Shown here: positions 11 through 25,345 of the stretch, in pieces | Numbering within the stretch: position 1 is the first letter of the stretch | Layout of the letters: each line of letters starts with the position of its first letter | DNA from: Cyclobacteriaceae bacterium | GTDB lineage: Bacteria > Bacteroidota > Bacteroidia > Cytophagales > Cyclobacteriaceae | Direction: 5' to 3' | Length of the DNA stretch: 42,443 bases | NCBI GenBank assembly: GCA_029881895.1 | Contig: JAOULS010000003.1 | Span: forward strand, 1-42,443 | Program-made: the position numbers and the translations under genes | Notes under the pieces: model-generated | Databases searched by the model: none | The model's input: the letters and a program-made list of their open reading frames with translations, nothing else | Told to the model about the DNA's origin: nothing

Positions 11-1689
11 ATTGGACTGTTTCAAACAAAGAGGATGTATCTAAAAAGAAAGTGATTACAGATGAAAAGCCTACGTTAGAGCTTGATGTAGAGGTTGCTG
101 AACCAGAACAAGTAGAAGAACAACCAGAGTTAGAGCTTGAAACTGTGTCAACTGAAGAAAAAACGGTTATCTCACAAGAGAATTATGACCCTACTTTAGA
201 CTTGGGGTCATATCAATATCCTTTATTGAGTTTGTTGGACGATCACAAATCAGGAAAGGCACAGGTGAGTAAAGAAGAGTTAGAACAAAATAAGGACAAA
301 ATTGTAGAAACACTTATTAATTTTAAAATTGGTATTTCAAGCATAAAAGCTACTATTGGCCCAACGGTTACGTTGTACGAAATAGTTCCAGAGGCGGGGG
401 TAAAAATATCTAAGATTAAAAATTTAGAGGACGATATAGCACTGAGTTTGGCTGCGTTAGGGATTAGAATTATAGCTCCCATACCTGGAAAAGGCACCAT
501 AGGTATAGAAGTGCCTAATAAAAATCGTGAAATGGTAGGGATGCGTTCTGTGATGAGTGTAGATAGGTTTATGAATTCAACTAAGGAACTACCTGTTGCT
601 ATCGGAAAAACAATTTCGAACGAAGTTTTTGTTTTAGATTTAGCAAAAATGCCTCATATATTAATGGCAGGAGCAACTGGGCAAGGAAAATCTGTAGGGT
701 TGAATGCCTTATTGGTGTCATTACTATATAAAAAGCATCCATCACAACTAAAATTTATATTAGTTGACCCTAAAAAAGTTGAACTGTCTCTTTTTAGTAA
801 AATTGAAAGACATTTTTTGGCGATGCTTCCAGATGGAGAAGAAGCGATTATTACGGATACAAAAAAAGTAGTAAATACGTTGAACTCCCTTTGTATTGAA
901 ATGGATCAACGCTATGACTTACTGAAAGATGCTGGCGCTAGAAATTTGAAAGAATATAACGACAAGTTTGTGAAGCGAAGGTTGAACCCTGAGAAAGGAC
1001 ATCGTTTTATGCCCTATATAGTATTAGTGATTGATGAACTTGCAGATTTGATGATGACTGCGGGCAAGGAAGTGGAAACTCCTATTGCACGATTGGCGCA
1101 ATTAGCAAGAGCTATTGGTATTCATTTAGTTGTAGCGACACAACGACCTTCTGTAAATGTAATTACAGGGATTATAAAAGCTAATTTCCCAGCGAGACTA
1201 TCATTTAAAGTAACCTCTAAAATTGATTCGAGAACGATATTAGATTCGGGAGGTGCAGACCAACTCATAGGGATGGGAGACATGTTATTTTCACAGGGAT
1301 CCGATATTATACGTTTACAATGTGCCTTTGTGGATACTGATGAAGTTGAAAAAATATGTGATTATATAGGAGAGCAAAGAGGGTATGAATCGGCATATAT
1401 GCTACCAGAGTTTGTTGGAGACGAAGAAGGTGGAGCAAAATCGGATGTAGATTTGTCTGACCGAGATGCACTATTTGAAGAAGCCGCAAGAGTGATTGTG
1501 TTGCATCAGCAAGGAAGTACTTCTCTTATTCAACGAAAGTTGAAATTGGGGTATAATAGAGCAGGAAGATTGATTGATCAGTTGGAAGCAGCAGGGATAG
1601 TAGGTCAGTTTGAAGGTAGTAAAGCACGAGAAGTATTAATACCCGATGAGTATAGTTTGGAACAGTTATTGAGAGACATAGATAATTAA
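1..1689 (+). CDS. ftsK: DNA translocase FtsK, 3' part (5' truncated)
   Basis: The frame is open to the window edge, so the gene is 5' truncated. The GTG at 52 is not a convincing start, and bases 1-10 are probably adapter. About 560 residues remain of a protein that is usually around 800. The N-terminal membrane anchor is missing; a short acidic linker, the alpha/beta motor and the gamma domain are present. The Walker A motif GATGQGKS is at 670-693 and Walker B (LVIDELAD) near 1024-1047. A C-terminal winged-helix gamma domain (about 1460-1680) would read KOPS-like sites. FtsK pumps DNA and helps resolve chromosome dimers at the division septum. It is followed after 18 bases by lolA, a common pairing in Bacteroidota. 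Confidence 0.95.
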   Translation, partial: LPIYWTVSNKEDVSKKKVITDEKPTLELDVEVAEPEQVEEQPELELETVSTEEKTVISQENYDPTLDLGSYQYPLLSLLDDHKSGKAQVSKEELEQNKDKIVETLINFKIGISSIKATIGPTVTLYEIVPEAGVKISKIKNLEDDIALSLAALGIRIIAPIPGKGTIGIEVPNKNREMVGMRSVMSVDRFMNSTKELPVAIGKTISNEVFVLDLAKMPHILMAGATGQGKSVGLNALLVSLLYKKHPSQLKFILVDPKKVELSLFSKIERHFLAMLPDGEEAIITDTKKVVNTLNSLCIEMDQRYDLLKDAGARNLKEYNDKFVKRRLNPEKGHRFMPYIVLVIDELADLMMTAGKEVETPIARLAQLARAIGIHLVVATQRPSVNVITGIIKANFPARLSFKVTSKIDSRTILDSGGADQLIGMGDMLFSQGSDIIRLQCAFVDTDEVEKICDYIGEQRGYESAYMLPEFVGDEEGGAKSDVDLSDRDALFEEAARVIVLHQQGSTSLIQRKLKLGYNRAGRLIDQLEAAGIVGQFEGSKAREVLIPDEYSLEQLLRDIDN

Positions 1690-1707
1690 TTAGAATAAAT
1701 AAAAAAA

Positions 1708-2358
1708 ATGAAAAAATACGCTTACCTATTATTAACACTTTTTATGGGTGTTCAAGTTGTTTCTTTTGCGCAATATGACACTAAAGCAAAAGAAATTTTG
1801 GATGCCATGAGTAATAAGTATAAAAACATATCAGCTTACAAAGCGAAGTTCAGTACATCACTTGTAAACAAAATAGATGGAGTTAATGAAACCTTTAAAG
1901 GTGAAATTACCATTAAAGGAGATAAATATATTCTTTATACAGAAGAACAAACAGTAATAAATAACGGAACTACGGTCTGGACTTATTTACCAGATGTAAA
2001 TGAAGTTAATATTGATGTTTATGATCCTGATGATGATGAGATTACACCCTCAAGTATTTTCGATGAATATAAAAAAGGATATAAATATATTTGGATAGAA
2101 AATACAACTCAAGAAGGTGTAGCTTGTGATGTAGTTGATCTCATTCCAAATGACACAAAAAGCAGTCAATTTTTTAAAATTAAAATGATCATTTCTAGTA
2201 AAGATAAAACACTAAAAAAATGGACGATGTTTGAAAAGTCTGGAAATCAGCATATATATATCATAAGTAATTTTAATAGTAGTATCTCAATATCTGATGC
2301 TGTATTTAAGTTTGATGAAAGTAAATTTCCTGATGTAGAGGTCGTAGATTTGAGATAG
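1708..2358 (+). CDS. lolA: LolA-like outer membrane lipoprotein carrier protein
   Basis: 216 residues with a signal peptide (MKKYAYLLLTLFMGVQVVSF, then AQ). The mature part has the LolA/LolB-like half-barrel pattern: an early amphipathic helix (AKEILDAMSNKYKNISAYKA), then a run of beta strands with a GEITIKGDKYILY segment. LolA carries lipoproteins through the periplasm from LolCDE to the outer membrane. It starts just after ftsK and is probably co-transcribed with it; a strong hairpin terminator follows. The family call rests on fold pattern, length and position. No sorting partner is encoded nearby. Confidence 0.85.
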   Translation: MKKYAYLLLTLFMGVQVVSFAQYDTKAKEILDAMSNKYKNISAYKAKFSTSLVNKIDGVNETFKGEITIKGDKYILYTEEQTVINNGTTVWTYLPDVNEVNIDVYDPDDDEITPSSIFDEYKKGYKYIWIENTTQEGVACDVVDLIPNDTKSSQFFKIKMIISSKDKTLKKWTMFEKSGNQHIYIISNFNSSISISDAVFKFDESKFPDVEVVDLR

Positions 2359-2384
2359 AATAAATTATAGAAAAATAATTTATC

Positions 2385-2424
2385 AAAATACCTCAAGGGA
2401 TTTTCATTCTCTTGAGGTATTTTT
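2385..2424 (+). terminator. Rho-independent terminator after lolA
   Basis: A perfect 13-bp inverted repeat (2385-2397 AAAATACCTCAAG paired with 2411-2423 CTTGAGGTATTTT) with a 13-base loop and a T tract. The A-rich left arm would also let it act on the other strand. It ends only about 6 bases before the pyrF ATG. Confidence 0.85.
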
Positions 2425-2429
2425 GTGTT

Positions 2430-3242
2430 ATGACACGTCAGCAACTCTTTCAACAAATCCAACTAAAAAAATCATATCTATGTGTTGGTCTCGATGCCGA
2501 TATTACTAAAATCCCAAAACACCTTTTGGAAAAAGAGGATCCTATATTTGAGTTTAATAAACAAATAATAGATGCTACGAAAGAATATTGCGTAGCTTAT
2601 AAGCCTAATACCGCTTTTTATGAATCGTTGGGTCCTGATGGTTGGAGGAGTTTGCAAAAAACAGTAGCATATATCCCAAAGGATATTTTCACGATAGCAG
2701 ATGCAAAAAGAGGAGATATTGGAAATACATCTAGGCTATATGCAAAAGCATTTTTTGAAAACATGGACTTTGATTCAATAACAGTTGCGCCATACATGGG
2801 CGAAGATTCTGTAATGCCTTTTTTGGAATTTAATAATAAGTGGGTAATCGTATTAGCCCATACATCTAACAAAGGAAGCATGGATTTTCAACTATTTAAT
2901 GATAAAGGTAAAACGCTATATCAAGAAGTGATTGAAAAAAGTCAACAATGGGCTTCTCCTGATGAGCTGATGTTTGTAGTGGGGGCTACTAGGGCTGATA
3001 AAATTGGCGAAATTAGAAAACTAGCTCCTGATAATTTTTTCTTAGTACCTGGTGTAGGTGCACAAGGGGGCGATTTGGGTGAAGTGTCAAAATATGGCAT
3101 GAATAAGCAATGTGGTCTTTTAGTAAACTCTTCAAGAGGCATTATCTATGCTTCAGATAAAGAAGATTTTGCTGATACAGCAAGAGGTGAATCAAAAAAA
3201 CTTCAGCAACAAATGAGTGAGTACTTGGAGATGTACCTGTAA
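2430..3242 (+). CDS. pyrF: Orotidine 5'-phosphate decarboxylase
   Basis: 270 residues from the ATG at 2430. A TTG at 2412 would add six residues but lies inside the terminator stem, so it was rejected. The enzyme decarboxylates OMP to UMP, the last step of de novo pyrimidine synthesis. The catalytic block [11 protein letters not shown], with the key lysine near residue 93, and the [12 protein letters not shown] phosphate-binding loop are visible. The length and [10 protein letters not shown] motif fit the longer PyrF subfamily (about 270 residues) rather than the 230-residue E. coli type. There is no Shine-Dalgarno sequence, and the leader left after the upstream terminator is almost zero, which is odd. 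Confidence 0.95.
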
Positions 3243-3278
3243 GTTTATTAACTTATTCGTTCATTAATCCAATATGTT

Positions 3279-4565
3279 GTGCAGGAAACCTTTTTACATT
3301 TTATTTGGCAATATCAATATTTTGATAAACATAATTTAACTACTACTTCAGGAGTATCAGTCAATATTGTTTCTTCAGGGCATAGTAACCATGATGCAGG
3401 TCCTGATTTCGGTAACTCAAAAATTGTTATTGGCAGGATAAAATGGGCAGGTAATGTGGAAATACATATAAAATCATCGGATTGGTATGCACATCACCAT
3501 GAAATAGACAAAGGGTATGATAACGTGGTGTTACATGTGGTTTGGGAGTTTGATAAGCCTGTATATCGAACAGATGGATCAGAAATTCCAACGCTAGAAT
3601 TGAAAAGTAGAATTGACCCTTTATTGATAAATAACAGTGATAGATTAGTGAATAGCACTAAATCAATTCCTTGCTCTAATCAATTTCCTGCTATTAAAAA
3701 TTTGAGTAAGCAATCGATGATGGATCGTGTGTTGGCGGAACGATTGCAAAGAAAAGCGAAAGAAGTGATGGAGGTTCATGAAAGAACCAATGGTAATTGG
3801 GAGGAATGTGCCTATGTGTTACTTTGCAAAAATTTTGGATTTAAAACAAATGCTCAACCGTTTGAGCAGTTAGCGAGAGCTCTCCCTATAAAGGTGTTGA
3901 GAAAGCACAGCAATACGTTGTTACAGATAGAAGCACTTTTATTCGGTCAGGCAGGTTTTCTTGATAAAATAAGTAATGATTATCAGCAAGAGCTAGAATA
4001 TGAATATCGCTTTCTAGCACATAAATATAAACTTGAGGAAAACAAGCTCAATAAAGAACAATGGAAATTTGCTCGTTTAAGACCTGCGAATTTCCCAACT
4101 ATACGCCTCGCCCAGTTATCTGTGATCCTAAAAAACAGCACAAATTTATTTGCTAGTTTAATAGCATTAAGAAATTTTAAAGAGGTAGAGAAATTATTTA
4201 AAGAAGACCTTTCAAGTTATTGGACAAGTCATTATCAGTTTGGAGAGGAATCAGTAAAAAAAATAGCATCAATTGGGAAGTCTTCAATCGAAAATATTAT
4301 TGTTAATACCATAGTTCCGTTATTAGTTGCATACGGAAAGTCGATAGATGATCAGTCGCTTGTAGATAAGGCAGTATTATTACTCGAGTCTACTGCACCC
4401 GAAAAAAATAAAATCACCCGAAATTGGGACGTTTTAGGTGAAAAAGCTATGTCAGCATATTCTTCTCAAGCTCAAATAGAATTGTTCAATAACTATTGCT
4501 TACAAAAGAAGTGCCTTAAATGTGTCATTGGTTTACAGATTTTGAAAAAAAAAGCAATAATGTGA
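3279..4565 (+). CDS. DUF2851 family protein
   Basis: 428 residues starting at a GTG (3279), chosen because family members begin with a similar M-x-E-x-FLH-x-IWQYQ-F segment. The N-terminal half carries the conserved block HNDAGPDF-like (SNHDAGPDFGNSKI), WAGNVEIHIKSSDWYAH and a VVLHVVWEFD strand, as in DUF2851. The C-terminal half is helical and variable. The family is widespread in Bacteroidota and has no established function that I know of; the H, D and W-rich N-terminal block hints at a nuclease-like or sugar-binding core, which is only a guess. It follows pyrF by 36 bases and abuts the next membrane-protein gene (one base between stop and ATG), so these are probably one transcript. Confidence 0.85.
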   Translation: MQETFLHFIWQYQYFDKHNLTTTSGVSVNIVSSGHSNHDAGPDFGNSKIVIGRIKWAGNVEIHIKSSDWYAHHHEIDKGYDNVVLHVVWEFDKPVYRTDGSEIPTLELKSRIDPLLINNSDRLVNSTKSIPCSNQFPAIKNLSKQSMMDRVLAERLQRKAKEVMEVHERTNGNWEECAYVLLCKNFGFKTNAQPFEQLARALPIKVLRKHSNTLLQIEALLFGQAGFLDKISNDYQQELEYEYRFLAHKYKLEENKLNKEQWKFARLRPANFPTIRLAQLSVILKNSTNLFASLIALRNFKEVEKLFKEDLSSYWTSHYQFGEESVKKIASIGKSSIENIIVNTIVPLLVAYGKSIDDQSLVDKAVLLLESTAPEKNKITRNWDVLGEKAMSAYSSQAQIELFNNYCLQKKCLKCVIGLQILKKKAIM

Positions 4566-4566
4566 A

Positions 4567-5829
4567 ATGATGATTTATATTATTCATGCTGTTATTCTTG
4601 GAAGTGTTATCTATTGGAGCTATAAGAAGCCAAATAGTAGTGAACTGTCGGGCTTCTTTTTCCCCGCAATGCTATTTAAAATTGTAGCGGGCTTAGGTGT
4701 AGGAGTACTTTATTTTTTTTATTATGAAATTGGTGATACAATACTTTATTTCGAAGATGCCAAAAAGGTAAGTGAAGTATTTTACAGTAGTTGGGTGAAT
4801 TATTTTCGATTTCTTTTCGGCTACGATTCTATGGAACTGAATTATATTGATAATTATAGGGCTTTATTATTTGTGAAGTTGATTAGCCCAATAGTTATAT
4901 TCACACAAAACAATTATTGGATTACTTCAGTATATTTATCCCTAATGAGTTTTTATACTTGTTGGTATTTAGTGTTAAACATTAATAAATATTATCATCA
5001 GGTTATTACTGGTGGAGTAGTAGCATTTTTGTTTTTCCCTTCCATTGTTTTTTGGTCTTCAGGAGTGTTAAAAGAAACTATTTCTATGTCCATTATTGTT
5101 GTGTTGTCAGTTTTTTTTATTCAGATAGTAAATGATGAATTTAAACTTCCTGTCAGGAAAGTTGTTCTTGCTTTATTGTTGGTGTTTCTCCTTTTCCAAT
5201 TAAAATACTACTATGCAGCAATTTTTTTAATTGCAACCTTACCAACGTTAATTTTTAAGCTCTTTTCTAAATATTTTAAAATTAAAAATACTGTTTTTAT
5301 TTGGTTGATGCTATTGTTATGTTTCACAGTAGGAGTTTCATATCTTCATCCTAATTTAAGCTTACAACGTGTTATGGATGTTGTAATAGCTAACAACAAG
5401 CTGTACAATCAACATGTTGATTTATCAAAAACGATATATTATTACAATTTAGAGAATACTTTAATTAGTATTTTTATTAATGCACCTTTGGCATTAGTAT
5501 CTGCACTTTTTCGTCCTTTTGTTTTTGAAGTGGGGAGTGTTTTGCAATTTATGTTAGGGGTAGAAAATGTTTTTCTTGTTGCTCTATTTTTAGTATTTCC
5601 CTTTCGGAAAATAAAAATAAAAAAAAATGAATGGCCAGTTATATTAACATGTTTCACCTATATCATTGTTCTGGCAGTACTTTTAGCTTTATCAACTCCA
5701 AATTTCGGAACGCTATCAAGGTATAGGATTAGTTTTTTGCCATTCTTAGTTGTTTTGTTAAGCTACAATAATCCACTATTAATTAAGTTTTTTGGTTTGA
5801 TGGTTAAAATCGATGTTCGAAAAACGTAA
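4567..5829 (+). CDS. Multi-pass integral membrane protein of unknown function
   Basis: 420 residues with roughly ten or eleven hydrophobic segments spread over the whole length. Short charged loops such as KLPVRK-like and RKIKIKKNEW separate them. An FFPSIVFWSSGVLKE segment near residue 155 resembles loops seen in membrane glycosyltransferases (GT-C) and EpsG/Wzy-type polymerases of Bacteroidota, but I cannot assign a family with confidence. The start is ATG 4567, directly after the DUF2851 stop; a second ATG follows at 4570. The next gene is a NeuD/PglD-type sugar acetyltransferase, which supports, without proving, a role in making or modifying a surface glycan. Confidence 0.8.
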   Translation: MMIYIIHAVILGSVIYWSYKKPNSSELSGFFFPAMLFKIVAGLGVGVLYFFYYEIGDTILYFEDAKKVSEVFYSSWVNYFRFLFGYDSMELNYIDNYRALLFVKLISPIVIFTQNNYWITSVYLSLMSFYTCWYLVLNINKYYHQVITGGVVAFLFFPSIVFWSSGVLKETISMSIIVVLSVFFIQIVNDEFKLPVRKVVLALLLVFLLFQLKYYYAAIFLIATLPTLIFKLFSKYFKIKNTVFIWLMLLLCFTVGVSYLHPNLSLQRVMDVVIANNKLYNQHVDLSKTIYYYNLENTLISIFINAPLALVSALFRPFVFEVGSVLQFMLGVENVFLVALFLVFPFRKIKIKKNEWPVILTCFTYIIVLAVLLALSTPNFGTLSRYRISFLPFLVVLLSYNNPLLIKFFGLMVKIDVRKT

Positions 5830-5839
5830 ATAAATTTTG

Positions 5840-5847
5840 TAACTTTG
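5840..5847 (+). promoter_or_regulatory. -7 box (TAACTTTG) of the acetyltransferase gene
   Basis: TAACTTTG matches the Bacteroidota -7 consensus TAnnTTTG exactly and lies 17 bases before the ATG at 5865. No TTG -33 element was found at the expected 17-23 base spacing. The 5' leader would be very short. Confidence 0.5.
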
Positions 5848-5864
5848 CCCTTTAAAAATAACCT

Positions 5865-6503
5865 ATGGATAACCCAGTAATAATTTTAGGTGCTAATGGC
5901 TTGGGAAAAGCCGCAAAAGAAATTTTCGAAAGTCATGAAATAGTGATTTTTGGATTTTTAGATGATAATAAATCATTGCATAATGCCGAGATCGGAGATG
6001 TGTCAGTATTAGGAAGTACTACTGATGATGGTTATCTGAAATATATTGGCAAAAAATGTCAGGCATTTGTTGCAGAGGACAATAATACTGCTCGGAAATC
6101 AATGGTAAAGGTATTGAATGATCGAAGAAAAGTAATGCCAGTCAATGCTATTCATAGTCAGGCTTATATTTCATCCTCAGCACATATTGGACATGGTAAT
6201 TTTATTAATGCAGGAGTTACTATTGGTGCAAATGCTAAAATAGAAAGCCATTGTCTTTTACATGCTAATTCAGTAATTGATTTTGATGTAGAGATTGGTG
6301 AGTATGTTCAAATAGGAGCAGGATCAATTATTGGCAGTAGTGCTAAGATTGAAAGTGAAGTGTTTATTGGTTCTGGTGCAACAATAGTTTCTGGTGTTAC
6401 CATTGAAAAAGGGGCAAGAATAGGAGCAGGTTCAGTCGTAATCTCTGATGTATCCAAAGGTGACACTGTATTTGGCAACCCTGCGCAACCTATTAAAAAG
6501 TAG
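5865..6503 (+). CDS. NeuD/PglD-family sugar O-acyltransferase
   Basis: 212 residues. The N-terminal domain (about 1-85) begins with a Rossmann-like VIILGANGLGKAAKEIFES segment and FGFLDDN, as in PglD/NeuD proteins. From about residue 95 the chain becomes hexapeptide repeats of a left-handed beta helix (AHIGHGNFINAGVTIGANAK and on), ending in the typical GNPAQPIKK tail. Such enzymes transfer an acetyl group from acetyl-CoA to an amino or hydroxyl group of a nucleotide sugar or sialic acid. No neuB, neuA or aminotransferase gene lies next to it, so the substrate cannot be named. The membrane protein upstream is a likely partner. Confidence 0.85.
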   Translation: MDNPVIILGANGLGKAAKEIFESHEIVIFGFLDDNKSLHNAEIGDVSVLGSTTDDGYLKYIGKKCQAFVAEDNNTARKSMVKVLNDRRKVMPVNAIHSQAYISSSAHIGHGNFINAGVTIGANAKIESHCLLHANSVIDFDVEIGEYVQIGAGSIIGSSAKIESEVFIGSGATIVSGVTIEKGARIGAGSVVISDVSKGDTVFGNPAQPIKK

Positions 6504-6561
6504 TTGCCATCGACATCAGATGATCGTTTTTCAGAAATTAATAAACGCTCTGTATGAAAAT

Positions 6562-6567
6562 AGGAGG
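6562..6567 (+). promoter_or_regulatory. Strong Shine-Dalgarno (AGGAGG) of trhO
   Basis: AGGAGG lies 5 bases before the ATG at 6573. A full consensus Shine-Dalgarno is uncommon in Bacteroidota, and most genes in this window have none. It settles the trhO start. Confidence 0.7.
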
Positions 6568-6572
6568 AAGTT

Positions 6573-7529
6573 ATGAAGAATTATTACATTTTATTGTATT
6601 ACTGCTACACGAAGATTGAGGATCCTGAATTGTTTAAGGAAGAGCATCATCAATTTTGTTTGGATAACAATATTCTAGGACGAATAATTATCGCTTCCGA
6701 AGGTCTAAATGGAACAGTTTCAGGGCTTAAAGAAGATTGTGAGAAATACATGGCTCATGTAAAGGCTGACGCTAGGTTCGATAAATTGGAGTTTAAAATT
6801 GAGGAACATGATGAACATGGTTTTAAAAAACTTCATGTACGCATAAAACCCGAAATTGTTCACTCAGGATTTAGTTATGTAGACCCCACTAAAAAAACAG
6901 GCATACATTTAGAACCTCATCAGTTTAAAGCCATGAAAGACGATGAAGATGTGGTGGTTTTAGATTGTAGGTCAAGTTATGAGTATAATCTAGGAAAGTT
7001 CAACAATGCTGAGACAATGGAAATTGATAATTTTCGTGATATCCCAGCACATATAGATGAACTGAAAGAGAAGTATAAAGGAAAAAAAATAGTCACCTAT
7101 TGTACAGGTGGCATTAAGTGTGAAAAGGCGAGTGCCTATCTGCTAGATCAAGGGTTTGAAAATGTGTATCAGCTTCATGGTGGAATTATTAAATATGGAA
7201 CTGAACAAGGAGGAGAGGATTTTGACGGAAAATGTTATGTCTTTGATAATAGAATTGGTGCAGATATAAATAAAGTGAATCCAGTAGTGGTTTCAGAGTG
7301 TCACATTTGTCACACTAAATCGGATAGAATGGTGAACTGTTGTAACCCTAGTTGTAATATTCATGTTGCTATATGTGAATCCTGTGGTTGGGAGTTAGAT
7401 GGAGCTTGCTCGGTTGAATGCCAATCGAATGAAAATAGAAGACCCTACGATGGTACTGGGTATTATCAAAAGAATACGAATGGTTATAACCCATATATTG
7501 GCTTCTATAGAAAAAAAGATTTCCTATAG
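6573..7529 (+). CDS. trhO: tRNA uridine(34) hydroxylase (rhodanese-related, TrhO/YceA)
   Basis: 318 residues. An N-terminal ferredoxin-like domain (GRIIIASEGLNGTVSG near residue 35) precedes a rhodanese domain (about 120-220) with the active-site loop TYCTGGIKCEKA, catalytic Cys near residue 177. A C-terminal cysteine-rich tail follows (CHICHTK, CCNPSC, CESCGW), probably a metal site. TrhO makes 5-hydroxyuridine at the wobble position of tRNA, using molecular oxygen. The length fits the family. It has a perfect Shine-Dalgarno, unlike its neighbours, and sits alone, with about 70 bases upstream and 54 downstream. Confidence 0.92.
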   Translation: MKNYYILLYYCYTKIEDPELFKEEHHQFCLDNNILGRIIIASEGLNGTVSGLKEDCEKYMAHVKADARFDKLEFKIEEHDEHGFKKLHVRIKPEIVHSGFSYVDPTKKTGIHLEPHQFKAMKDDEDVVVLDCRSSYEYNLGKFNNAETMEIDNFRDIPAHIDELKEKYKGKKIVTYCTGGIKCEKASAYLLDQGFENVYQLHGGIIKYGTEQGGEDFDGKCYVFDNRIGADINKVNPVVVSECHICHTKSDRMVNCCNPSCNIHVAICESCGWELDGACSVECQSNENRRPYDGTGYYQKNTNGYNPYIGFYRKKDFL

Positions 7530-14797: not shown

Positions 14798-16189
14798 TTA
14801 TCCTTTTTTTACAATACTTGCAGTCAAATAGCCTTCGCTTACTAATGTTTTTCCTACAAATGCTCGTCCGTACATTTTAGCTATTCCTCTTTTAATAGGC
14901 CCTTGCAAATAACAATCCATCACGATGGTGTCTCCTGGTAATACCATTTTTCTAAACTTGAATCCTTCAACCCCTAAAAAATAGGTCCAATAATTCTCAG
15001 GGTCAGGGACAGTATTTAACACTAATATACCGCCTACTTGTGCCATTGCTTCTATTTGAAGTACGCCTGGCATAACAGGGTTACCAGGGAAATGTCCTTG
15101 AAAAAAAGGCTCGTTAAGTGTTACATTTTTCACTCCTGTAACACGTTCTTCATCAAGATGAATGATTTTATCTACAAGCAAAAAAGGATAACGATGAGGT
15201 AGAATACTTGTTATTTTATTGATGTCATAAACAGGTGGTAAATTAATATCATATTTTGGAATGTTCTTTTTAGCCTCTTTTTGCATTATCTTTTTAATCT
15301 TTTTTGCAAAAGCAACATTGGCTGCATGCCCAGGGCGAGCTGCCAATATTTGAGCTTTAATAGGTTTTCCTACTAAGGCTAAATCACCCATAACATCAAG
15401 TAATTTATGTCTTGCTGGTTCGTTTTGATACCTTAACTCAACATTGTTTAGAATTCCTTCTTTTTTCACTTCTACTTTAGGCTTGTTGAATAGCTTTGCT
15501 AAGCTGTCTAGCTCATGTTCTTCTACTACTCTATCCACTACCACTATAGCATTATTCAAATCACCGCCTTTTACTAGGTTGTTTTTGTACAACATTTCAA
15601 GCTCATGAAGAAAACAAAAAGTTCGGCAAGAAGCTATTTCTTTTTCGAACTGACTTAAATTAGTTAGTGAAGCATGTTGACTACCTAGTACAGGAGAGTT
15701 ATAATCGACCATTACAGTTACTCTGTAATCATCTAATGGAAGTGCCGCAATTTCAACATCTCTTTCAGGTTCTCTGTAAAAAATGCTTTCAGTAATTTCA
15801 TAAAATTCTCTTTGAGCATTTTGTTCTTGTGTACCTGCTTCTTTTAAAATATTTACAAAAGCAGCAGAGCTACCATCCATAATGGGGGGCTCTGGGCCAT
15901 CAAGTTGTATTAATACATTATCGATTTCTAAACCAACAAGTGCTGCAAGAGTATGTTCGACAGTATTTACTCTTGCTTCTCCCTGCTCTATCGTTGTCCC
16001 TCTCGAAAGATCAACCACATAATCTACATCTGCATCAACAGTAGGGTGGCCTTCAATGTCAATGCGTTGAAATTTTATACCATGATTAGGTTTTGCAGGT
16101 AAAAAAGTCATGTTTGTTTCTACCCCAGTGTGTAGACCTACTCCTGATAGAGTAACTGATTTTTTTATAGTGTGCTGTTTTATATTCAT
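14798..16189 (-). CDS. lpxC/fabZ: Bifunctional UDP-3-O-acyl-GlcNAc deacetylase / 3-hydroxyacyl-ACP dehydratase
   Basis: 463 residues, a fusion typical of Bacteroidota. Residues about 1-305 are LpxC: GVGLHTGVETNMTF, the zinc His in VNTVEHTLAAL, MDGSSAAFV, and the second zinc pair in HKLLDVMGD. Residues about 320-463 are FabZ: ILPHRYPFLLVDKI and GHFPGNPVMPGVLQIEAMAQ, with catalytic His and Glu. LpxC removes the acetyl group in the first committed lipid A step. FabZ dehydrates hydroxyacyl-ACPs and so competes for the same precursor pool. A -7 box at 16211-16218 suggests its own promoter, because the usual lpxD link is broken by a 563-base spacer. Confidence 0.97.
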   Translation of the reverse strand: MNIKQHTIKKSVTLSGVGLHTGVETNMTFLPAKPNHGIKFQRIDIEGHPTVDADVDYVVDLSRGTTIEQGEARVNTVEHTLAALVGLEIDNVLIQLDGPEPPIMDGSSAAFVNILKEAGTQEQNAQREFYEITESIFYREPERDVEIAALPLDDYRVTVMVDYNSPVLGSQHASLTNLSQFEKEIASCRTFCFLHELEMLYKNNLVKGGDLNNAIVVVDRVVEEHELDSLAKLFNKPKVEVKKEGILNNVELRYQNEPARHKLLDVMGDLALVGKPIKAQILAARPGHAANVAFAKKIKKIMQKEAKKNIPKYDINLPPVYDINKITSILPHRYPFLLVDKIIHLDEERVTGVKNVTLNEPFFQGHFPGNPVMPGVLQIEAMAQVGGILVLNTVPDPENYWTYFLGVEGFKFRKMVLPGDTIVMDCYLQGPIKRGIAKMYGRAFVGKTLVSEGYLTASIVKKG

Positions 16190-16210
16190 TTCTGTATGCT
16201 AAGTAATCGG

Positions 16211-16218
16211 CAAATTTA
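16211..16218 (-). promoter_or_regulatory. -7 box (TAAATTTG) of lpxC/fabZ
   Basis: On the - strand this reads TAAATTTG, an exact match to TAnnTTTG, 21 bases before the lpxC/fabZ ATG. No TTG was found at the usual distance further upstream. It supports independent transcription of lpxC/fabZ-lpxA-ABC despite the insert after lpxD. Confidence 0.5.
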
Positions 16219-16270
16219 GTATTTTTTCTAAACCTGTCCTTATGTCTTTAATTCAAGTATAATTGATGTG

Positions 16271-16295
16271 TTCTATACAAATTCTATACAAATTC
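16271..16295. repeat. 11-bp tandem direct repeat upstream of lpxC/fabZ
   Basis: The unit TTCTATACAAA occurs twice in a row (16271-16292), followed by TTC. The period is close to one DNA turn. It lies about 53 bases upstream of the lpxC -7 box (in - strand sense). It could be an operator, or just local duplication in decaying DNA. Confidence 0.5.
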
Positions 16296-16329
16296 ATGTT
16301 AAAAAATACATAATCCCATATAAGACGTG

Positions 16330-16535
16330 CAAATATATTAAATTAAAGAATAGATATTCATCGCATTGCCCATAATTTAAGTTGTTACTAATCTATCACC
16401 AGTTTTAGGGTTGATTCAGGTTAATTAAATACTCCTCCCAAATACCATCAAATGGAAGTTGTTTTTCTCTTGACAATAAATGTCTGTTGGCAGAGCAATT
16501 ATAACTAAAGAAATAAGAAGTGATGATTTTAACAT
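16330..16535 (-). pseudogene. Probable decayed gene for a small secreted protein
   Basis: Within the 563-base gap between lpxD and lpxC/fabZ, an ATG at 16535 opens a signal-peptide-like frame (MLKSSLLISLVIIALPTDIY then CQEK). One base missing in an A run near 16470 would move into a second frame reading KQLPFDGIWEEYLINLNQ. A further shift reads PKTGDRLVTT, then a stop. Each piece looks like coding sequence, and the joined product resembles the start of an exported Bacteroidota protein. The rest of the gap (16196-16330 and 16536-16752) holds no frame or motif that I recognise apart from the lpxC promoter and an 11-bp repeat. I do not recognise the family. Confidence 0.4.
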
Positions 16536-16752
16536 AGAATAATTAGATTCAACAACAAGATATAAATACATGTAATATTTTTTCAACTCATTTTCTAATT
16601 GTATAAAATATAAGTTATGATATCCCGCTTATTTGTTTAAATTCTGTTGGAGGTGATTCTGAAAAAGCAGAATAAACCACTATTACGCTAATCAATGTAC
16701 ACTTTTTTATAAAAACACAAAACCACTACCTTTAGAAGATTTCATGGTGAAA

Positions 16753-17790
16753 TTACGAATTTAGCATTTTGTCTTCAAGTTGCCTTAATCGAGTACTTAA
16801 GTCGGGTAAATTTTTAAAAACAGCGTACGAACGGTAAAATTGTGAAAGGTTAATTGCAGGACTTCCAAATAATTTTTCCCCTTCTTTTTTTACACTTTTC
16901 CCCAAACCTGTTTGCGCACCTAGCGATGTTTTGTTGGCTACTTTTAGATGTCCTGCAACCCCACTCTGTCCTCCAAACACACAATTATCCCCTATTTCTG
17001 TGGAGCCAGCAATGGCCGAGTGAGCAGCAATAACTGTATTCTTGCCAATTTTCACATTGTGAGCTATTTGAATAAGGTTGTCTAGTTTGGTGCCATCTCC
17101 AATTATTGTAGAATCTGTTGGCATTACAGAGCAATCAATAACGGTATTACCACCAATATGTACATTGTTCCCTATTACTACATTTCCTAATTGAGGGATA
17201 TTCTTATAGGTGCCGTCTTCTTGAGGTGCAAAACCGAAACCATCGCTCCCAATGATCACGCCAGAATGGAGAACACAATTGTCTCCAATTTTTGAATTAG
17301 AATATAATTTTACACCTGAGTGTAATATGGTATTGTTGCCTATTACAGAGTTATCCCCTATATAAGTGTGTGGATATATTTTCACATTTTCTCCTATCGT
17401 TACATTCTCGCCAATATATGAAAAGGCACCTCTATAAATACCTTCGCCAGTTTTTGAATTAGATCCTATGAAAGACATTTCTTCAACCCCCGATTTTTGA
17501 AAACTGATAAATGCATGATATTGTTCAAGTAGTTGAGTAAAAGCGATATAGGGGTCGTTAACTCTTATAATGGTAGTAGTAAGTTTTTCTCGAGGCGAAA
17601 AATCATTTGAAACAATTACGGCAGAAGCATTGGTAGTATATATGAGTGGTTCATATTTAGGGTTGGACAAAAAAGAAATTTGACCTTTAGAGGCGTCCTG
17701 TATGCTTGATAGCATATTGATTGTTTCTTCAGCTTCACCTTCTACTTTACCACCAAGTAAAACGGCAATTTGGGCTATTGAAAATTGCAT
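16753..17790 (-). CDS. lpxD: UDP-3-O-(3-hydroxyacyl)glucosamine N-acyltransferase
   Basis: 345 residues. LpxD adds the N-linked hydroxyacyl chain to the LpxC product in lipid A synthesis. The N-terminal domain (about 1-100) contains the uridine-binding LSNPKYEPLIYTTNASAVIV region. The middle is a left-handed beta helix of hexapeptides, with the catalytic His in LIQIAHNVKIG and the GGQSGVAGHL block. A C-terminal helix (KNLPDLSTRLRQLEDKM) closes the trimer. It starts 24 bases after the HD-hydrolase stop, so the two are probably co-transcribed. A 563-base gap downstream separates it from lpxC/fabZ. Confidence 0.97.
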   Translation of the reverse strand: MQFSIAQIAVLLGGKVEGEAEETINMLSSIQDASKGQISFLSNPKYEPLIYTTNASAVIVSNDFSPREKLTTTIIRVNDPYIAFTQLLEQYHAFISFQKSGVEEMSFIGSNSKTGEGIYRGAFSYIGENVTIGENVKIYPHTYIGDNSVIGNNTILHSGVKLYSNSKIGDNCVLHSGVIIGSDGFGFAPQEDGTYKNIPQLGNVVIGNNVHIGGNTVIDCSVMPTDSTIIGDGTKLDNLIQIAHNVKIGKNTVIAAHSAIAGSTEIGDNCVFGGQSGVAGHLKVANKTSLGAQTGLGKSVKKEGEKLFGSPAINLSQFYRSYAVFKNLPDLSTRLRQLEDKMLNS

Positions 17791-23887: not shown

Positions 23888-25285
23888 TTAGTCTTTTTTA
23901 CTTCTTGAGCTACTTCTTGAACTGCTTGATGAGCTTCTAGAACTTCCTGAAGAAGATCTAGAGTTGCTGCTACTTCTATTGTAACTTCCTGAAGAAGATC
24001 TTGAGGAGCTATTATTACTCCTGTTGTAACTTCCAGAGGAAGATCTTGAGCTATTATTACTCCTGTTGTAACTTCTAGAGGTAGAGCCACTACTATTTGA
24101 ACTGCTACTTCTGTTATAGTTAGAATTTGAACTATTGCTTCTGTTGCTACTCCCCGTTCTTGACGATTTTTGTTGATTTGAAGGAGTATAATTACTTCTG
24201 CTATTATTATTCGTTCTAGTCGAACTGTTGGTTCTTACATTATAATTCGAACCACTATTTCTTGAGCTACGAGTAGTCGTTTCTACAGTACCACTTCTGT
24301 TACTGTTCACATTAGTTCTAGCTCCTGTAGTAGCGTTATTTCTTGAGTTATAATTGCTTCTTGTATTTTCTGACGTCCTAGAAAACCCTGAGTAATTATT
24401 CCCTTTGGTTGTAGAACTTGCTACTCTGCTATTTGTTCTGCTGGTTACATTGTCAGTACTATTACTGGTAACTCTTCCATTAGAAATCCTTCCAGAATTT
24501 ACATCATTAGTGGCAACTCTACCTCTAGTAGTAGTGGAGCTCACACGTCCATTGGTGTTATAATTGGTTCCTCGGCTTGTTCTTTTTCCTCTTACAATAC
24601 CCCTTGAGCTAAAGTTGTCATTATTACTTACAAAATAATTGTTTTGGTTGTAATGATTGTAATAAGACGGAGGACACCAAAAAGGGTCGTAATAGTTGTA
24701 GTATGAGTTGTAATAACTACTTCCCCAATAATATCCATATGGATTATATCTCCATCGGTTATAGCCAAATGCAGAATAGCTATTGCCTATTGAAAATGAA
24801 ACGCCCCATCCAGGACGGTAATAAGCATTGTGTCTATAATAGGGGTCATAAAAAGGACCAAACATGTTGCCTTGATATAGAAAAGGGTCATTCCAAAATA
24901 CATCGTCATAACGACTATAGTATCTTGTGGAGGGAGATCCATAATAATAATGTTTAACGACCACATCGGCATTTTCTATGTATTCTTCAACATCTTGAGA
25001 TGGATTTTGGACTTGATAGCCTTCTTCAAAATATACATCGGCATCTTTGTCTATATATGACTCATTATCTGCCAAATACTCAGGATTCGTTGTCTTATTA
25101 AGTAATGAATCATTCTCAGTTACTGGAGGTGCAGTTTGTTGTGCAGCTATAGCTACTTTTGATTCAACTTTTTCACGGTCTTTTTTTCTGAAGTAGATGT
25201 CATCATATTCCTGTCCATACGAAGGAATTGACACGATTACTAAGAGAATAAAAATGGGGGCAAGTGTAGTAAGTAGCTTTTTCAT
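23888..25285 (-). CDS. Secreted Tyr-rich and Ser/Asn/Arg-rich repeat protein, unknown function
   Basis: About 465 residues from the ATG at 25285 (MKKLLTTLAPIFILLVIVSI); an upstream ATG at 25309 would add eight residues without signal character. After the signal peptide comes an acidic stretch (PEYLADNESYIDKDADVYFE), then a Tyr/Asn/Trp/Pro-rich middle. The C-terminal half is Ser/Arg/Asn/Thr-rich and low complexity, ending in SSRSSSRSKKD. At DNA level, 42-45-bp units encoding SGSYNRSNNSSRSS repeat around 23939-24090. No catalytic motif is visible. Possible roles are surface or matrix binding; none can be shown. The gene sits just upstream of the OmpP1-like gene. Confidence 0.75.
   Translation of the reverse strand: MKKLLTTLAPIFILLVIVSIPSYGQEYDDIYFRKKDREKVESKVAIAAQQTAPPVTENDSLLNKTTNPEYLADNESYIDKDADVYFEEGYQVQNPSQDVEEYIENADVVVKHYYYGSPSTRYYSRYDDVFWNDPFLYQGNMFGPFYDPYYRHNAYYRPGWGVSFSIGNSYSAFGYNRWRYNPYGYYWGSSYYNSYYNYYDPFWCPPSYYNHYNQNNYFVSNNDNFSSRGIVRGKRTSRGTNYNTNGRVSSTTTRGRVATNDVNSGRISNGRVTSNSTDNVTSRTNSRVASSTTKGNNYSGFSRTSENTRSNYNSRNNATTGARTNVNSNRSGTVETTTRSSRNSGSNYNVRTNSSTRTNNNSRSNYTPSNQQKSSRTGSSNRSNSSNSNYNRSSSSNSSGSTSRSYNRSNNSSRSSSGSYNRSNNSSSRSSSGSYNRSSSNSRSSSGSSRSSSSSSRSSSRSKKD
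23939..24090. repeat. Imperfect 42-45-bp tandem repeat in the Ser/Asn-rich gene
   Basis: Units begin with a GTAACTTCC-like segment on + and recur at 23981, 24026 and 24068, with a diverged unit at 23939. They encode SGSYNRSNNSSRSS-like peptides on the - strand. Length differences are multiples of three, so the frame is kept. Confidence 0.75.
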
Positions 25286-25345
25286 GACTATAATTTTTAT
25301 ATTAAACACAGTAGCTTAATAATATAAACGACAATTTAACAATAA

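Follow-up and report, generated by a model that had tools for sequence, protein, structure and literature searches.

The long gap between lpxD and the fused lpxC-fabZ gene in the window (the whole stretch of 42,443 nucleotides from a Cyclobacteriaceae bacterium analysed here) is accounted for exactly by a net insertion of 545 bp in the end of lpxD, made up of 526 bp of other DNA and a 19-bp direct duplicate. The whole account that we favour, with a probability of roughly 0.7, is that this insertion and its duplicate split the coding end of lpxD from the promoter box of lpxC. The locus is laid out as follows:

14798 to 16189, minus strand: lpxC-fabZ fused gene, above the NCBIfam cutoff, 95% identity to the sister
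16190 to 16752, minus strand: 563-bp gap, the spacer between lpxD and lpxC-fabZ
16753 to 17790, minus strand: lpxD, above the NCBIfam cutoff, its end now ...LRQLEDKMLNS and stop on copy A of the duplicate

The preliminary description had reported 563 AT-rich bases between the two genes, and this is confirmed (27.0% GC in the gap vs 33.4% in the window). In the sister genome, the sole congener compared, the spacing is just 9 bp. When 19 spacers were compared between the window and the sister contig, 18 differed by 34 bp or less (two of these span a skipped gene) and lpxD-lpxC alone was strongly different. The sister contig is identical to JAOUKH010000002.1 over the compared 4 kb, and a scan of the genome contigs returned the sister sequence as its sole find. 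Elsewhere on the contig, the best sister segment for 6573-7529 spans residues 1-195 of 318 only, one segment per gene having been kept, and 23888-25309 has 45% identity to the sister over residues 1-320 of 473, its neighbours having 72% and 96%.

A wider comparison was based on 98 junctions, namely 58 (own genome included) and 40 hand-picked among the matches listed; 272 of the 295 family genomes matched, and several genera are represented at least twice. Seven junctions in which lpxC had no tblastn match in the fetched stretch were dropped, so that 91 remain, the window being one of them. The view that lpxD and lpxC/fabZ are usually tightly linked in this group holds in the main, since 68 of 91 spacers are at most 50 bp, yet 23 exceed 60 bp and four exceed 150 bp. 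The window has the longest of all 91, followed by 370, 216 and 188 bp, the last of which stems from a frameshifted lpxD reading. In one relative (L182, G311), lpxD seems frameshifted near its end, with the normal tail LEEKILNLPSFQ and stop in another frame, followed by 132 bp to lpxC. In the second longest spacer (L017, G005), TAAATTTG lies 84 bp upstream of lpxC, and the lpxD tail has no significant counterpart there (p 0.058 with the own tail). Displaced lpxD tails were sought in 13 of the 22 other gaps longer than 60 bp, and the lowest values in 26 tests were p 0.01 (L025, own tail) and p 0.016 (L092, sister tail).

The gap results from an insertion relative to the sister and the relatives, and it carries a duplicate of which one copy is exactly conserved. 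Its parts are:

16756 to 16774, minus strand: copy A of the 19-bp direct duplicate, AGACAAAATGCTAAATTCG, which still codes for the LpxD end and in which the box reads TAAATTCG
16230 to 16755, minus strand: inserted DNA, 526 bp, 26.8% GC, without counterpart in the sister
16211 to 16229, minus strand: copy B of the duplicate, AGAAAAAATACTAAATTTG, with 19/19 identity to the sister lpxD 3' end
16199 to 16229, minus strand: displaced old lpxD tail, readable as EKILNLPIT and stop (sister EKILNLPTT and stop)

With the gap as query in a DNA search, its first 40 bases matched the 3' end of the sister lpxD (E 9.1e-7), and about bases 18-40 matched lpxD ends in other genera. In blastn, positions 56-4033 of the sister contig correspond to window 20733-16758 and positions 4017-7027 to window 16229-13231; because these segments overlap, 17 bp of the sister occur twice in the window. 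Together, the DNA match and the split alignment identify 16190-16229, the last 40 bases of the gap, as the old lpxD 3' end, which the preliminary description overlooked. Here 35 of 40 bases agree with the sister without an indel, and lpxC lies at the sister's distance. Copy B agrees with the sister lpxD 3' end in 19 of 19 bases and in the next four as well. Copies A and B agree with each other in 16 of 19. The present LpxD end on copy A (EDKMLNS and stop) is three residues shorter than the sister LpxD. A duplicate longer than 19 bp was evaluated by an own-alignment test with four lpxD ends (p 0.05 for the own lpxD, 0.16 for the sister, 0.29 and 0.43) and by an anchored test in six settings (p 0.02 in one, 0.19-0.63 in the rest).

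The claim of a gain in the lipid A gene cluster is supported, as the insert is lineage-specific and missing in the sister and nearly all relatives. That the gain was recent is not demonstrable. Silent divergence between the window and the sister is high (pS 0.45-0.75 over 20 genes, Ks >1 in 17 of 20), and the duplicate copies differ at 3 of 19 positions. These three differences argue against a very young insertion.

The insert was seen in one metagenome-type assembly only, and this assembly is fragmented (312 contigs, of which the window is contig 163) with 90% completeness and 4.4% contamination. A misjoin of one strain's lpxD to the lpxC side of another could therefore be considered, and we regard it as very improbable: both flanks are syntenic with the sister, the divergence of lpxD and lpxC is within the spread along the contig, and the repeats are short and imperfect. 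Replacement by a foreign LpxD was also considered and rejected, because the 79% identity of the syntenic LpxD to the sister protein falls within the 45-98% of its neighbours and gives no sign of replacement.

What kind of DNA was inserted is a separate question. A remnant of a transposable or integrated element, with the 19-bp repeat as its target duplication, is an explanation that deserves consideration but that we think unlikely. A direct repeat of the target is present at both ends of the insert, the repeat flanks DNA missing from relatives, and the insertion lies at a gene's 3' end. However, terminal inverted repeats, a recombinase gene and further copies of the insert were sought in the window, the own genome and the 59 genomes, and none was found: the search at the insert ends gave no inverted repeats, the own genome holds no second copy at E 0.001, and a DNA search detected the insert in none of the other 58 genomes. 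No frame of more than 67 codons lies wholly inside the gap, and matches to mobile DNA are short, the best reaching E 0.004 over 34 bp in phages and E 0.01 in plasmids. A 19-bp duplication is also long for most insertion sequences.

The significance of the duplicated stretch lies in the motif that it contains:

16211 to 16218, minus strand: TAAATTTG, candidate -7 box of an lpxC promoter, 29 bp upstream of the ATG, a position shared with the sister, identified by comparison

A -7 consensus of TAnnTTTG has been published for Bacteroides and Flavobacterium (PMC7366714, PMC9723704). A single such box carries little weight, as 55 occur in the window vs 64 expected by chance, but its recurrence does: the 60 bp upstream of lpxC contain TAnnTTTG in 66 of 91 junctions as compared to 18 of 427 control windows, and in the reverse orientation in three of 91. 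The smaller junction set gave 33 of 51 vs 15 of 306. The genomes are related, so that these counts are not independent and the p-values overstate independence. When the best match to TAAATTTG, with one mismatch allowed, was located over the same 60-bp range in all 91 junctions, it lay inside lpxD in 40, over the stop codon in 21 and in the intergenic space in 13 (the window among them), and was absent in 17. By comparison, the box before lpxC-fabZ has a conserved place, and it likely acts as a promoter, judging from its sequence and position.

The boxes inside lpxD all have one phase (40/40), mostly giving an LpxD tail of the form [ILV]-N-L. In genomes with an LNL-type tail, a set picked by the peptide tail and not by the box, TTG encodes the final Leu in 42 of 42, vs 18% of 943 other Leu codons in the same lpxD stretches. 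This tail occurs in 39 of 40 genomes with the box inside lpxD, a figure that partly follows from the box itself, and in none of 34 genomes with the box over the stop or downstream. (The LNL-type total is 42 in one count and 43 in the other because the scripts examined tail stretches of unequal length.) The use of TTG and the absence of the tail where the box lies elsewhere make the tail peptide look like a by-product of the promoter box.

For a -33 element, TTG was sought upstream of the boxes, and none occurs 17-23 bases before that of copy B. Before 21 gene-embedded boxes, TTG has a spacing of 12 in 16 cases and of 21-22 in five, and it occurs at 19-21 bases in three of 12 intergenic or stop-overlapping boxes. 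In F. johnsoniae, too, the -33 element reportedly escaped detection.

These observations suggest the following history. Before the insertion, the stretch would have served, as in relatives, both as the C-terminal tail of LpxD and as the -7 box TAAATTTG of lpxC-fabZ. Some 526 bp of unrelated DNA would then have entered the last lpxD codons, with about 19 bp directly duplicated. Copy A would have stayed with lpxD and supplied the gene end while its box was altered to TAAATTCG; copy B would have stayed 29 bp before lpxC and kept the intact box. Insertion thus probably uncoupled DNA that had served as both coding sequence and promoter. The copy B box is unchanged to the base relative to the sister, even though Ks between the two genomes is >1 in 17 of 20 genes. 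We infer that selection preserved this box and that copy A has lost the promoter role. Copy A may not be inactive, as one relative (L146) has no box before lpxC other than TAAATTCG when one mismatch is allowed. Also, if the insertion is young, the conservation of copy B may simply derive from its having been coding until lately.

For the insert itself, the preliminary description had proposed a small secreted-protein gene that was gained and then decayed by frameshifts, based on a signal peptide and coding-like pieces on the minus strand:

16425 to 16535, minus strand: 36-aa ORF beginning MLKSSLLISLVIIALPTDIYCQEK, with a signal-peptide-like start, probably a chance occurrence
16405 to 16461, minus strand: piece QLPFDGIWEEYLINLNQP and stop in another frame, probably due to chance
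16377 to 16409, minus strand: piece PKTGDRLVTT and stop in another frame, probably also due to chance

The letters are as described, the start does resemble a signal peptide, and with two frame changes the pieces can be joined into a single protein of 51 aa. An ATG-started ORF that passes a simple signal-peptide rule arose in only 60 of 1000 dinucleotide shuffles (6%), and the codon score of the gap was reached in 15-26% of shuffles (p 0.15-0.26, with frameshifts allowed or not), so that neither signal is clearly above chance. The best codon-usage segment lies mostly on the plus strand, outside the proposed frames. Codon usage was trained on 37 ORFs of the window, and with short pieces the test has limited power, since real 50-codon gene pieces have a mean score of 15 and a range of 0.6-36. 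Searches with the separate pieces and with the joined peptide gave best family matches of E 0.19 in Pfam, E 0.33 in PHROGs and E 1.8 in PDB, none in NCBIfam, and no credible match in the 59 genomes or the 295 family genomes, both sets including the own genome.

Several weak candidates were rejected. The best foreign matches, E 0.0132 in the 59 genomes and E 0.0026 in the 295 family genomes, come from one genome each and are at chance level; the latter (G298) falls within a gene for ribosomal protein L1, in a different frame. A resemblance to NuoN around GIWEKYL/GIWEEYL, at E 0.0217 for the sister and 0.0346 for the own genome, had no support at the DNA level, where the alignment scores (19 and 17) were no better than 100 shuffles produced. 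Two family matches, to a PHROG tail chaperone (E 0.33) and to Pfam Imm72 (E 0.19), are likewise at chance level. With neither protein similarity nor a coding signal, the reading as a decayed secreted-protein gene is not supported, and we hold it to be improbable; if the insert is old, no trace of such a gene would be left in it, but there is little evidence for one. The opposite expectation, a spacer conserved at base level as a regulatory element, applies only in part: protein similarity is lacking, and base-level conservation is confined to the last 40 bp and does not extend over the whole spacer.

If the insert were functional, as the gene of a small secreted peptide or as a leader RNA for lpxC, it would have its own promoter at a second box:

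16330 to 16337, minus strand: TATATTTG, predicted second promoter-like box, inside the insert and within AATTTAATATATTTGCAC

Among the 59 genomes, exact occurrences of the 18-mer AATTTAATATATTTGCAC (16327-16344, minus strand) number two, one in the window and one in a relative (L072, G009), each in the lpxD-lpxC spacer; the 216-bp spacer of another relative (L147, G098) contains the similar TTAATATATTTGCA. The shared second box may reflect common descent or a favoured promoter form. We nevertheless consider a functional insert quite improbable: no unusual RNA fold was predicted (z 1.07 to -1.30), the best Rfam match is far below the cutoff, the insert as a sequence is absent from all other genomes of the 59, and the 18-mer is also exact in 10 viral-contig stretches. 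The Rfam candidate, S414, was rejected at E 0.22 and 23.8 bits vs a cutoff of 45. Most likely, the insert is non-coding filler.

An insertion that probably separated a coding end from a promoter box takes the place of the dead-gene reading, and the statement about regulation that follows from it can be tested. In a large bacterial group, a separate promoter for lpxC-fabZ, the committed step in making lipid A, seems to lie in the end of lpxD, and the recurrent C-terminal peptide of LpxD (xNL) is probably the shadow of selection at the DNA level. On balance, we lean slightly towards the general form of this statement, in which the last residues of LpxD across Cytophagales-like relatives are set by the promoter of the next gene and not by protein function, and an insertion with target duplication separated both roles. 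The locus shows a way in which an overlap of coding sequence and promoter can be undone and, if the account is true, represents a natural experiment in which two overlapping codes were split between two lipid A genes. No paper on an overlap of the lpxD tail and the lpxC promoter was found among the matches listed from the open literature, most subscription papers lying outside its scope.

The candidate box resembles the housekeeping promoter of Bacteroidetes (-7 TAnnTTTG, -33 TTTG) in its motif, TAAATTTG 29 bp before lpxC, and in its recurrent position and orientation; it differs in being predicted, without a recognisable -33 element and often written inside the upstream gene. In B. thetaiotaomicron, 21% of transcription starts are reported as internal to coding sequences (PMC7366714). 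The lpxC box is similar in that a start signal likely lies within the coding sequence of the preceding gene. Unlike these internal starts, the box here leaves its mark on codons and on a peptide tail in many genera; in further lineages it overlaps the stop codon or lies outside the gene. Duplication-degeneration-complementation is a concept for bifunctional elements, and the present locus is comparable in that two copies exist, each apparently retaining one former role. It is unlike that model in that the duplicated unit is a 19-bp stretch derived from an insertion and not a gene duplicate, and in that copy A would presumably have lost its promoter role.
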